IMG/VR virus record: IMGVR_UViG_3300039191_000025
Location: 1-31,138 of that record
Length of the DNA: 31,138 nucleotides
Source: a virus
Reading direction: 5' to 3' (one strand)
The translations under genes and the position numbers were made by a program. Of the stretch, positions 5,971 to 31,092 are shown in pieces. How positions within the stretch are numbered: position 1 is the stretch's first letter; every line of letters starts with the position of its first letter. The notes beneath the pieces were generated by a model, which was given only the letters and a program-made list of their open reading frames with translations, ran no database searches and was not told the DNA's origin.

Positions 5971-6010
5971 CCCCGTTAGCCTTTCTTGGTGCTAACGGGG
6001 TTTCCTTTTA
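5971..6010 (+). terminator. Rho-independent terminator T1
   Basis: A perfect 10-bp stem (CCCCGTTAGC with GCTAACGGGG) and 10-base loop is followed by TTTCCTTTT. It closes the head operon. The stem sequence is nearly the same as in the terminators at 6559 and 7900. Confidence 0.93.
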
Positions 6011-6558: not shown

Positions 6559-6592
6559 CCCCGTTACCGTACATCTTGGTAACGGGGTTTCA
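6559..6592 (+). terminator. Rho-independent terminator T2
   Basis: CCCCGTTACC pairs perfectly with GGTAACGGGG around a nine-base loop, followed by TTTC. It ends the transcript of the gene at 6306 and differs from T1 by one stem base pair and the loop. Confidence 0.9.
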
Positions 6593-7899: not shown

Positions 7900-7932
7900 C
7901 CCCGTTAGTTTGTAGATTGCTAACGGGGTTTC
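7900..7932 (+). terminator. Rho-independent terminator T3
   Basis: CCCCGTTAG pairs perfectly with CTAACGGGG around an 11-base loop, followed by TTTCGCT. It lies 20 bases after the capsid stop and is the third member of the repeated terminator set. Confidence 0.9.
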
Positions 7933-22051: not shown

Positions 22052-22110
22052 AAACTTTGGGAATGAGCTTGACACTCGTTGTTATCTAATAGTAGAGTCT
22101 AGGTAACAAC
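22052..22110 (+). promoter_or_regulatory. Early promoter P1 with overlapping dyad
   Basis: TTGACA at 22069-22074 and TAGAGT at 22093-22098 are 18 bases apart. GTTGTTATC (22078-22086) and GGTAACAAC (22102-22110) form an inverted repeat with one mismatch around the -10 box. The same -35 context (AGCTTGACAC) recurs at 24949 and 25489. Confidence 0.8.
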
Positions 22111-22905: not shown

Positions 22906-23139
22906 ATGAATCTACAATTCAGCGACCTAGTGCAAAAGCTAGAGGCGGAGCGCAACGACATAAGCTACCGGAGCCACTTTACGAAGCCGGAAGTCAAGGT
23001 CATAACCAAGACAATGAAGGTTGTGCCGGAGAGGTTTAAGCGTACTTATTTCCACGCGGGCCGCTATTCGGCAGGCGACCGAGACAGCCTTGCAACAGAG
23101 GCTTGGGCAGAATACGAGAAGCAGGAGGGGTTGAGCTAA
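22906..23139 (+). CDS. Hypothetical protein
   Basis: A 77-residue basic protein starting at ATG after AAGGAG. It is helical at both ends, with many Lys, Arg and Glu in the middle (FTKPEVKVITKTMKVVPERFK). No family recognised. Its TAA stop overlaps the ATG of the replication initiator-like gene, so it may be a partner or regulator of it. Confidence 0.65.
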   Translation: MNLQFSDLVQKLEAERNDISYRSHFTKPEVKVITKTMKVVPERFKRTYFHAGRYSAGDRDSLATEAWAEYEKQEGLS

Positions 23140-23954
23140 TGCCAATAATTAGGAACCCCGATTCTTTCGAAGACCCTTACACTCGCATACCTAATTATTG
23201 GGTAAGGGACAGCCGGCTGTCACTAGCAGCCATTGGGCTTATCACGCAGATAATGTCTCATTCTGTAGGCTGGTCAATCTCTCAAGAGTCTCTGGGCCGC
23301 GCCAACAACGTGGGGCGTGACAGCATACGCACAATACTCAATGAGCTAATGGAGCATGGGTACCTAACGCGTTCTGATGAGCGTGAGCGTAATAGCTCAG
23401 GCCACCTTGGTGGTTACACATACTGGACAAGCTCGCCAGTATCCAGCGATGCAACCACGACGGCTGAACCTACGTTGGCTGAACCTACGTTGGCTGAGAC
23501 CGCACATAAGAAGAACATTCTTAAAGAAGAACAAGTTAAAGAAGAAACCCTTAATGCGAGTGTTGATGAGGAATTTCAAGAACAGTTCAAAAAGTTCTGG
23601 GAGCTATACCCTCGGAAGATAGACAAGGGACGAGCAGTGAAGGACTTTAGAAGCGCTTTGAAAAGGGCAAGCTTTGAAGTTATCTTGGCAGGTGTCGCCG
23701 CGTACAAGGACGACCCTTACCGAAAGCCTCAGTTCACTAAGTACCCTTCGTCTTGGCTCAATGCGGATGCTTGGGATAACTTCATCACCTCACCAGAAGC
23801 CCGCGTTGCCACCGAGGAGCGACGAACTAAGGACTTGGCATACAAAGACAAGTACCTAGAAGACCAACGCTCACAGGAGGCGCTGAGCGCTCCTGCTCCT
23901 AAGTGCGAACACGGCAATACAGTTGCACTTTGTCGGAGATGTCTGGCAAGATAG
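23139..23954 (+). CDS. Replication initiator / helix-turn-helix protein
   Basis: A 271-residue protein. Residues 1-90 form a winged-helix domain of the type in phage replication initiators (RLSLAAIGLITQIMSHSVGWSI...ILNELMEHGYL). Residues 104-119 include a short tandem repeat AEPTLAEPTLAET. A charged linker leads to a DnaD-like helical region (FKKFWELYPRKIDKGRAVKDF), and the C-terminus has a CEHGNTVALCRRC zinc cluster. It probably recognises the origin and loads host replication proteins. It starts at ATG overlapping the preceding TAA; an in-frame ATG at 23103 is internal to that gene. Confidence 0.8.
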   Translation: MPIIRNPDSFEDPYTRIPNYWVRDSRLSLAAIGLITQIMSHSVGWSISQESLGRANNVGRDSIRTILNELMEHGYLTRSDERERNSSGHLGGYTYWTSSPVSSDATTTAEPTLAEPTLAETAHKKNILKEEQVKEETLNASVDEEFQEQFKKFWELYPRKIDKGRAVKDFRSALKRASFEVILAGVAAYKDDPYRKPQFTKYPSSWLNADAWDNFITSPEARVATEERRTKDLAYKDKYLEDQRSQEALSAPAPKCEHGNTVALCRRCLAR

Positions 23955-26026: not shown

Positions 26027-26169
26027 TGACCAAGGACACCCGACAATTCTTGCTAACGGTCACGCTCGCCACCTTGGGAGCTTGGCTGCTAGTCACCGAG
26101 ACACACCGAAAGCTAATCGCTTGGGGTTGGGATTACGTCCTCGCCTTCATAACTTACCTAACCCACTGA
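26026..26169 (+). CDS. Single-pass membrane protein
   Basis: A 47-residue protein whose ATG overlaps the preceding TAA (TAATG). A single hydrophobic helix (FLLTVTLATLGAWLLV) follows a short charged N-terminus; the C-terminal half is rich in Trp, Tyr and Leu and may be partly membrane-embedded. No family recognised. The coupling and codon pattern support a real gene. Confidence 0.6.
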   Translation: MTKDTRQFLLTVTLATLGAWLLVTETHRKLIAWGWDYVLAFITYLTH

Positions 26170-26180
26170 AAGGGGTTGAA

Positions 26181-26378
26181 ATGGCATCAAGCATAAAAGA
26201 CACAAGGGTCACAATCACCGAGGCAGCTACCGAACTCGGACTACACCCAAACACAATCCGCAACTACATCCGCGAAGGACGCATAAGCATTACCCGGTTA
26301 GGCCCTCGTCTAATCCGCATTGACCGAAGCGAACTTTACAAGATTGCAGGAGGCGACCCAGAATGGAGAAAGCGCTAA
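26181..26378 (+). CDS. Excisionase-family helix-turn-helix protein
   Basis: A 65-residue DNA-binding protein starting at ATG 26181 after GGGGTTG. The segment VTITEAATELGLHPNTIRNYIREGRISITRLGPRLIRIDRSELYKI is the MerR/excisionase-type winged helix. No integrase is seen, so it is more likely a small transcription factor than a directionality factor. It could act on the dyad promoters nearby. Confidence 0.85.
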   Translation: MASSIKDTRVTITEAATELGLHPNTIRNYIREGRISITRLGPRLIRIDRSELYKIAGGDPEWRKR

Positions 26379-27851: not shown

Positions 27852-28119
27852 CCCTAAACGACAAAAGGTTACGAAGTCTGCAAAAAAAGCAGAGCTACTT
27901 GACCGCACCATTAGCGAGCGCAAATTCTGCTCTGTTTGTCAGTATTACTACTCAGAGATGTTCACCTGCCCAATCTGTTACGGAGCAGAGCTGGAGCGTG
28001 ACCGAATCCACAAAGCAATTTATGATTACTTTCGGCTATTTGACGGAGCATCAAATAGAACTCACAAAATTAGCGAAGCGGAGCTTATAACGCTAATCAA
28101 AGAGGCACAAGATGACTAA
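27844..28119 (+). CDS. Zinc-ribbon-like small protein
   Basis: A 91-residue protein with a basic N-terminus and a CSVCQYYYSEMFTCPICYG rubredoxin-like zinc ribbon (Cys29, Cys32, Cys43, Cys46), then a helical C-terminus ending EAQDD. The previous gene also ends KAQDD, so the gene junction looks duplicated. ATG lies inside the preceding gene (overlap eight bases). Confidence 0.65.
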   Translation: MTNPKRQKVTKSAKKAELLDRTISERKFCSVCQYYYSEMFTCPICYGAELERDRIHKAIYDYFRLFDGASNRTHKISEAELITLIKEAQDD

Positions 28120-28255
28120 GCAACCGTTCGGAAATCCCGAACAGTTCAAGTTGTACAAGATGTACAAAATGACTAAGAAAAAAGGGTCAGAGATTATGAC
28201 TAAGAAAACAAGGTCAGAAAATAAGCCCTGTCAGCAAGTTACTGACAATCCATAA
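28112..28255 (+). CDS. Small basic protein with internal repeat
   Basis: A 47-residue basic protein that begins with ATGACTAAG inside the previous gene. Residues 20-27 (MTKKKGSE) and 29-36 (MTKKTRSE) are near-identical, so two further ATG codons (28169 and 28196) could act as nested starts. It is rich in Lys and Gln. The 3' end contains a copy of an operator-like palindrome. Function unknown. Confidence 0.5.
   Translation: MTKQPFGNPEQFKLYKMYKMTKKKGSEIMTKKTRSENKPCQQVTDNP
28229..28247. promoter_or_regulatory. Operator-like palindrome, copy A
   Basis: TGTCAG, seven bases, CTGACA form a palindrome at the end of the small basic gene. A longer version lies at 28478-28498 with the same spacing and shared TTACTGACAA right half. 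Confidence 0.6.
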
Positions 28256-28308
28256 AAACATGGAAGCCAGCATCCATAAAAATGGAATGTAACCATAACG
28301 ACACAAGC

Positions 28309-28345
28309 GCCTTAGTAACACTATCGTCACAAACGTTAGTAAGGC
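28309..28345. repeat. Inverted repeat GCCTTAGTAAC
   Basis: GCCTTAGTAAC (28309-28319) and GTTAGTAAGGC (28335-28345) match as an inverted repeat in ten of 11 positions with a 15-base loop. Confidence 0.6.
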
Positions 28346-28364
28346 AAAGAATAACTAACATTTG

Positions 28365-28388
28365 TAATGTAAATAACAACTTACATTA
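28365..28388. repeat. Perfect inverted repeat TAATGTAA
   Basis: TAATGTAA (28365-28372) and TTACATTA (28381-28388) form a perfect dyad with an eight-base spacer. Size and spacing fit a dimeric regulator site. Confidence 0.65.
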
Positions 28389-28477
28389 GAAGGGAAACAT
28401 TGGGTAACGTCAACGAAGCTAGACAGCTTGCGACAAACGGCATACGATTTTCACCCTCACTACACTACCTTTTCACC

Positions 28478-28498
28478 TTGTCAGTGGATTACTGACAA
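28478..28498. promoter_or_regulatory. Operator-like palindrome, copy B
   Basis: TTGTCAGT, five bases, ACTGACAA is a perfect 21-base palindrome. It lies about 77 bases before the gene at 28575, and its right half includes CTGACA, which could serve as a -35 box. Confidence 0.7.
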
Positions 28499-28542
28499 AA
28501 CCTGCAACACATACGCATACCTGTAACACTTTTTGATGAAAA

Positions 28543-28564
28543 ATGTATCTACAATGTATCTACA
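28543..28564 (+). repeat. Tandem 11-base repeat ATGTATCTACA
   Basis: Two perfect head-to-tail copies lie just before the DUF3310 gene. TACAAT across the copies (28550-28555) could be a -10 box, so the repeat may overlap the promoter as a two-site operator. Confidence 0.65.
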
Positions 28565-28574
28565 AGGAGACACC

Positions 28575-28787
28575 ATGAGCGACCCAATAAACCACCCAAG
28601 CCATTACACCAGCCACCCAAGTGGCATAGAAGCCATAGAAGTCACTCGCTGGATGGGTTACAATCTAGGCAACGTTGTGAAGTACTGCTGGCGTGCAGGG
28701 CTAAAGAACGACAGGGTTCAAGACCTAGAAAAAGCTCAGTTCTACCTCAACGACGAAATAAAAAAACTGAAAGGGAATAATGCTTGA
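28575..28787 (+). CDS. DUF3310 family protein
   Basis: A 70-residue protein with the DUF3310 pattern: NHPSHYTSHPSGIEAIEVTRWMGYNLGNVVKYCWRAGLKN, then LEKAQFYLNDEI. These small phage proteins occur near nucleotide-metabolism or replication genes; their activity is not established. It starts at ATG 28575 after AAGGAG and overlaps the next gene by eight bases. Confidence 0.9.
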   Translation: MSDPINHPSHYTSHPSGIEAIEVTRWMGYNLGNVVKYCWRAGLKNDRVQDLEKAQFYLNDEIKKLKGNNA

Positions 28788-30584: not shown

Positions 30585-30760
30585 TGAGTCCGAATTACGA
30601 TTACAAGTGTCCGGGCTGTCGTCTTGTTCAAAGCGCCACTCACCCTATTAGCCAAGACCCTAACCTGACCTGCGACCAGTGCGCTGTATCCCTTGTCCGT
30701 ATCCCAAGCGTTCTAGCTGTTACCTTCAATGCCAAAGACTTCTACTCGACGAGTCCCTAA
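30584..30760 (+). CDS. FmdB-type zinc-ribbon protein, copy 2
   Basis: A 58-residue protein homologous to copy 1 (94-267), with Cys9/Cys12 and Cys30/Cys33 pairs and the same AKDFYSTSP end. Its N-terminal half differs at many positions, including the extra Ser after the start. The TAA overlaps the ATG of HNH copy 2. The third-base changes in the shared tail show that both copies have been kept under protein-level constraint. Confidence 0.8.
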   Translation: MSPNYDYKCPGCRLVQSATHPISQDPNLTCDQCAVSLVRIPSVLAVTFNAKDFYSTSP

Positions 30761-31092
30761 TGGGTAGGTGGCCCCAGCCCTGCGCTGTTTGCGGAACTCT
30801 GACAAAAGGGGCAAATAGGTGCGACCCCCATGAGCGGGAGTATAGGCAGCGGCGGGCTAACGCGGCGGACGCTCGTGTTGATACTCGCAAGAAATCTCAG
30901 CTATACAACTACGCTTATCGGCAAGAAGCAAAAAGGGTAAAGGAAAATGCCACTCACTGCCACTTGTGCAAGGAACCCTTCTTACTAGGGCAGCCCATAG
31001 AAGCCGACCACCTTCAGGCAGGAGTCTCGGACAGTCCGTTAGCAGCAGCGCATAGACTCTGCAACCAACGTAGAGGAGACAAGCCACTATGA
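30760..31092 (+). CDS. HNH endonuclease, copy 2
   Basis: A 110-residue HNH nuclease with the same metal-binding and catalytic residues as copy 1 (PCAVC, RCDPH, CHLC, EADH, H-x2-CNQRRG). About 13 differences separate it from copy 1, mostly outside the catalytic core. It ends with the TGA overlapping the ATG of the junction gene. An in-frame ATG at 30679 lies inside the zinc-ribbon gene and is rejected. Confidence 0.85.
   Translation: MGRWPQPCAVCGTLTKGANRCDPHEREYRQRRANAADARVDTRKKSQLYNYAYRQEAKRVKENATHCHLCKEPFLLGQPIEADHLQAGVSDSPLAAAHRLCNQRRGDKPL

Follow-up and report, generated by a model that had tools for sequence, protein, structure and literature searches.

The dyad-rich gap upstream of the DUF3310 gene in the virus record IMGVR_UViG_3300039191_000025 (31138 bases; the whole IMG/VR record was analyzed and is called the window here) is probably a regulatory junction of the early region which has been shuffled by recombination. 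At this junction the relatives of the phage appear to carry an orphan operator of AbiE, a type IV toxin–antitoxin system, and the window itself a contracted 19-bp form of this operator together with a second copy. The gap is a genuine accumulation of dyads, and its origin is likely to be regulatory.

Profile searches of the record named terminase, portal, major head protein and tape measure, also a phrog_284 exonuclease, an initiator-like protein gene at 23103–23954 and, downstream of the gap, the DUF3310 gene (28575–28787, plus strand). It is an actinophage that resembles Pontimonas phage phiPsal1 (31069 bp, circular), the gene order being similar according to the phiPsal1 annotation. PMC6106888 describes phiPsal1 as a lytic phage present at about 2% stoichiometry in a single DNA preparation from Pontimonas salivibrio, a bacterium to which 24 toxin–antitoxin systems are ascribed. 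Elsewhere in the record, the stretches 97–595 and 30590–31088 near its two ends share 77–81% identity across 492 bases and would be copies of a small gene pair in near-tandem arrangement if the genome is circular; one has a zinc-ribbon-like protein (match below the cut-off). The repeats AAGCTTGACACTCGTTGTCACT at 22069, 24951 and 25491 place a dyad over a TTGACA box immediately 5′ of genes and are likely early promoters with an operator. Three related terminator-like hairpins, CCCCGTTA...TAACGGGGTTTC, are found around the capsid gene at 5972–6004, 6559–6591 and 7900–7932.

The initial annotation had described a series of palindromes and repeats in the gap, all of which we found again. The two TGTCAG-N7-CTGACA palindromes are located at 28229–28247 and 28479–28497, 250 bases apart from start to start, and are the only exact instances in the window, the next best having two mismatches; when the flanks are included, the two agree in 18 of 23 bases. 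The first is followed by two direct repeats ATCCATAAAAA (28248–28258 and 28272–28282, within 28248–28286) spaced by 24 nt, each carrying one of the TCCAT/ATGGA hairpins at 28249–28264 and 28273–28286. Two dyads with 11-nt arms of 91% complementarity occupy 28309–28391: one has its arms at 28309–28319 and 28335–28345, and the other (28362–28372 and 28381–28391) contains a perfect 8-base core. Within the family this stretch recurs only in part, in L157 and L158. The tandem 11-mer AATGTATCTAC is present at 28542–28563 on the plus strand and also in L146, L151, L152 and L153.

The density of these dyads is beyond chance. Counting arms of at least 6 bases and comparing with 200 dinucleotide shuffles, we find four dyads in 28229–28564 (shuffle mean 1.1; four were reached by 6 of 200 shuffles) and an arm score that is matched by one shuffle in 200, and in the wider interval 28113–28574 there are six dyads, which none of the 200 shuffles attains. 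Among 184 sliding segments of 336 nt the one starting at 28057 has the top arm score of 10; the segment at 28225 scores 8 and shares second place with those at 27889, 5881 and 6553. The interval 28229–28564 is therefore dyad-rich as had been proposed, but its start was set too far downstream, since the dyads begin at about 28113. A scan for sigma-70 promoters and terminators gave no clear excess over shuffled sequence.

The view that the interval is non-coding has to be restricted at its left edge, where the first palindrome sits within an open frame of 47 codons (28112–28255, plus strand) with two 27-nt repeats at 28169–28195 and 28196–28222. Relatives have blocks homologous to this frame, and the frame relation is not preserved in them. 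An imperfect hairpin, AACCGTTCGG...CCGAACAGTT at 28122–28146, is also present in relatives, with a different arm sequence in one of them. On the same strand a frame of 31 codons at 28400–28495 starts with TTG after AGAAGGG and reads GNVNEARQLATNGIRFSP; judging from its sequence it looks like a broken gene start. It includes the motif TTTTCACCCTCACTACACTACCTTTTCACC (28448–28477, plus strand), a single partial copy of the 23-nt units CTACACTACCTTTTACACCCTCG that in the relatives L032, L025 and L146 stand in tandem directly 5′ of gene starts.

The relatives were collected via the exonuclease, DUF3310 and two DNA patterns. Their contigs share the module, but the flanking genes differ and the sub-blocks are present or absent independently of each other, and we therefore consider the gap a mosaic junction. 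In most relatives a 36-bp palindrome, TGTCAnnACnnTACCG-N4-CGGTAnnnTnnTGACA, takes the place of the first 19-bp palindrome of the window and is followed, as in the window, by the repeats spaced by 24 nt; the ATCCATAAAAA repeats adjoining the operator are conserved and more divergent in phiPsal1. The repeats on the left-hand side and the flank on the right-hand side of the first palindrome are the same as those of the relatives' operator.

When a pattern of this 36-mer with 22 fixed bases was run against bacteria and archaea, with one genome for each of 84,980 species, 20 matches were obtained, all of them actinobacterial according to the record titles. An AbiEi-like reading frame lies immediately 3′ of the palindrome in 19 of them as found by a script, and in the twentieth, L196, the AbiEi gene is visible in the list of open reading frames; in all 20 the palindrome ends at the AbiEi start codon. 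Pfam searches of three of the 20 loci returned AbiEi_4 for the first gene in 3/3 and AbiEii for the second in 2/2, all above the cut-off. The commonest host site is TGTCACAACACTACCGTTTTCGGTATAGTTGTGACA, the final base of which lies inside the ATG, and its arrangement TGTCAC-17 bases-TATAGT suggests an overlapping, leaderless promoter. This organization agrees with the AbiE operators of Streptococcus agalactiae AbiEi and Mycobacterium tuberculosis Rv2827c, which according to PMC7319586 are inverted repeats that overlap the antitoxin promoter and are bound by the antitoxin. Among 249 genomes of Microbacteriaceae an AbiE homologue is present in only 18, and in 11 of 18 upstream stretches a strong dyad (score at least 8) precedes the gene, with sequences that vary between subfamilies. 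Host operators shaped like the 19-bp palindrome occur in one of the 249 genomes, about as often as expected by chance.

With a matrix built on 12 distinct host operators, 24 of 34 family contigs score 32.8–54.0 bits at the homologous position, and the phiPsal1 site scores 40.6 bits. The maximum in 68 unrelated DUF3310 loci (488 kb) is 14.0 bits. The site of L170, a contig found through the operator pattern itself, equals the host consensus in 34 of 36 bases; the other site-bearing contigs were found through other queries. The remaining 10 of the 34 contigs are without the 36-mer site, and some of these end near it. None of the seven phage records searched whole has an AbiEi gene, and the palindrome of the phage copies, unlike that of the host matches, does not run into an AbiEi start codon. 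The near-match to the host operator and the lack of an AbiEi gene led us to conclude that the relatives carry an orphan AbiE promoter–operator. Among the 24 copies, which had been selected for possessing the site, similarity is 0.925 in the operator tile versus 0.63–0.80 in four neighboring tiles. In a search of named phages phiPsal1 was found at E 0.01 and all remaining matches at E 2 or more, and in the open-access papers searched we found none on phage-borne AbiE operators.

AbiE-type matches of 39.6–50.2 bits were also observed in other phage types (L176 9524–9559, L163 10852–10887 and L175 8352–8387), one of these contigs spanning 61.5 kb; L176 and L163 were both searched for an AbiEi gene and have none. 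The viral pattern was matched in L160, L162, L167 and L168 as well, but these may be ordinary hairpins and were not counted as operators.

We also considered that the block is chiefly what is left of a small protein-coding gene and that the dyads are incidental. Indeed at least 77 codons are open from the core onward in 12 of the 19 core-bearing copies of the relatives, and for one of two proteins there is one weak PHROG match (phrog_13566, E 8.7e-4). The frame is, however, interrupted in the other 7 of 19 copies, the variable positions are spread over the three codon positions (21/18/25) with little excess at the third, the module has no Pfam match and no relative among genome contigs, and the match to the host genomes is a palindromic one at the DNA level. 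In phiPsal1, moreover, no annotated gene covers the operator, which stands in a gap with terminator-like hairpins. We therefore judge a protein remnant unlikely. The phiPsal1 site comes after one such hairpin and another follows about 70 bases further on, so the transcript of a promoter there could only be short.

In the window the intact 36-bp operator, TGTCA..TACCG-N4-CGGTA..TGACA, is absent. The best site scores 6.2 bits with the host matrix, compared with a mean of 5.9 and a maximum of 13.5 for shuffled windows; at this level binding of AbiEi to the window site is unlikely. The first palindrome retains the outer arms TGTCAG...CTGACA (19 bp), while 7 bases are left of the core, and from these sequences a contraction of the palindrome through deletion seems plausible. 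The two palindromes of the window are not prominent in a scan with a half-site matrix. The exact palindrome TGTCAGNNNNTTACTGACA occurs in 37 stretches of viral contigs, in contexts which are mostly unrelated. A second, shorter site, TGTCACAAAATTGGTAC(A/G)GTTTGGGCA, is found near the next gene start in L159 (22031–22057) and L166 (7550–7576); this site, seen in phiPsal1 and relatives, resembles a contracted operator and scores below shuffled sequence.

Alternatively, the two 19-bp palindromes could serve as a functional pair of operators to which a regulator of the phage itself binds, such as the HTH_17/MerR-like protein encoded at 26082–26378, and could possibly loop the intervening 250 bp. 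Each palindrome has perfect 6-bp arms with 7-bp spacing, and a second exact match would be expected about 0.002 times by chance (calculated for 12 fixed bases in 31 kb). The HTH_17 domain of the window protein scores above the cut-off, and a palindrome of the same shape, TGTCAGTGAGTTACTGACA, is present in another phage group (L098 3200–3218 and similar contigs), where it is an apparent operator between a promoter-like sequence and the ATG. Against this, the pair is found in no relative, none of those searched having the second palindrome in a comparable setting, and the connection between the predicted HTH protein and the site is a supposition. A homologue of this protein was seen only in L135 and L145 among the loci examined, and both carry the 36-mer. 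A match to AbiEi_4 at 26208–26285 in the same region was rejected, being below the cut-off and better explained by HTH_17; the same search was positive in 13 of 14 control genomes. On balance we regard such an operator pair as doubtful and prefer the contracted operator with a second copy.

The initial annotation had offered an origin, a master switch or a structured RNA as functions of the gap. That the gap is regulatory DNA is upheld by the AbiE-type operator which replaces the first palindrome in the relatives; a master switch in the narrower sense is conjectural, and an origin and a structured RNA are not supported. The region is AT-rich (GC 0.39 at 28001–28500) and, lying among the early genes, combines repeats with dyads, as an origin might, but the predicted turning point of the GC skew at 28.2 kb is absent, with only a local dip at 28001–28750, the predicted initiator gene is more than 4 kb distant, and in the relatives the block stands between different genes. 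A replication origin is thus highly improbable here. In favor of a structured leader or small RNA one could cite the folding z-scores of the region, which are −2.6 to −4.7 on both strands and −2.3 to +1.8 for the remaining 350-nt windows. Both strands are, however, about equally low, as is expected of DNA palindromes. Rfam gave no match at the gathering threshold and covariation in the 36-mer is at the shuffle level (0.050 versus 0.053; 316 of 500 shuffles as high), making a structured RNA very unlikely.

In the preferred reading the core of the relatives would be an orphan 36-bp promoter–operator as found before actinobacterial AbiEi genes, followed by the repeats spaced by 24 nt, and AbiEi of the host would bind to it. 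The replicating phage might then titrate the AbiEi antitoxin-repressor or have a promoter gated by AbiEi. In the window the operator would have shrunk to its outer arms, with a second 19-bp copy 250 bp downstream near DUF3310, and this pair would be a decayed or retargeted derivative of the operator. We tentatively suggest that the orphan operators in phages of actinobacteria of the Microbacteriaceae type may capture the AbiEi of the host and act either as a decoy or like a sensor which opens a phage promoter once the antitoxin is depleted, the window palindromes being a remodelled version. The orientation of the site and the downstream genes differ among the phage copies, and in the family of the window the better promoter reading runs leftward, opposite to the early genes. 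The variation singles out no regulated phage gene, which speaks against our explanation, and weakly favors a decoy binding site over the promoter of one gene. Also counting against the explanation are the shuffle-level score of the window, the ten contigs lacking the site, the small share of Microbacteriaceae genomes with AbiE and the unremarkable half-site scan. AbiE is a widespread abortive-infection system, and a phage operator without AbiE genes would point to interference with antitoxin regulation at the DNA level; if true, this would be a DNA-only counter to toxin–antitoxin defence. The present record is of value mainly as a lead to the relatives, where the sites are intact.

Phage promoters under the control of host repressors such as LexA exist, and the likeness consists in a phage-borne operator for a host regulator; here the regulator would be the antitoxin of a toxin–antitoxin system and the regulation is putative. 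Cluster K mycobacteriophages reportedly have repeated intergenic start-associated sequences near the start codons of early genes. The gap shares with the start-associated sequences (PMC3203893) repeated intergenic motifs near early-gene starts in actinophages, but the motifs of the window do not recur in front of several genes (CTACACTACC occurs once and ATGTATCTACA exactly only as the tandem at 28543–28564), and the palindrome is an operator of host type. Another known system to compare is the AbiE promoter–operator itself. Its published repeats (PMC7319586) are 23-bp pairs with a spacing other than that of the phage sites, and an AbiEi/AbiEii gene follows the operator in the hosts but not in the phages, the core being lost in the window; the sites of the relatives nevertheless share up to 34 of their 36 bases with the actinobacterial operators.
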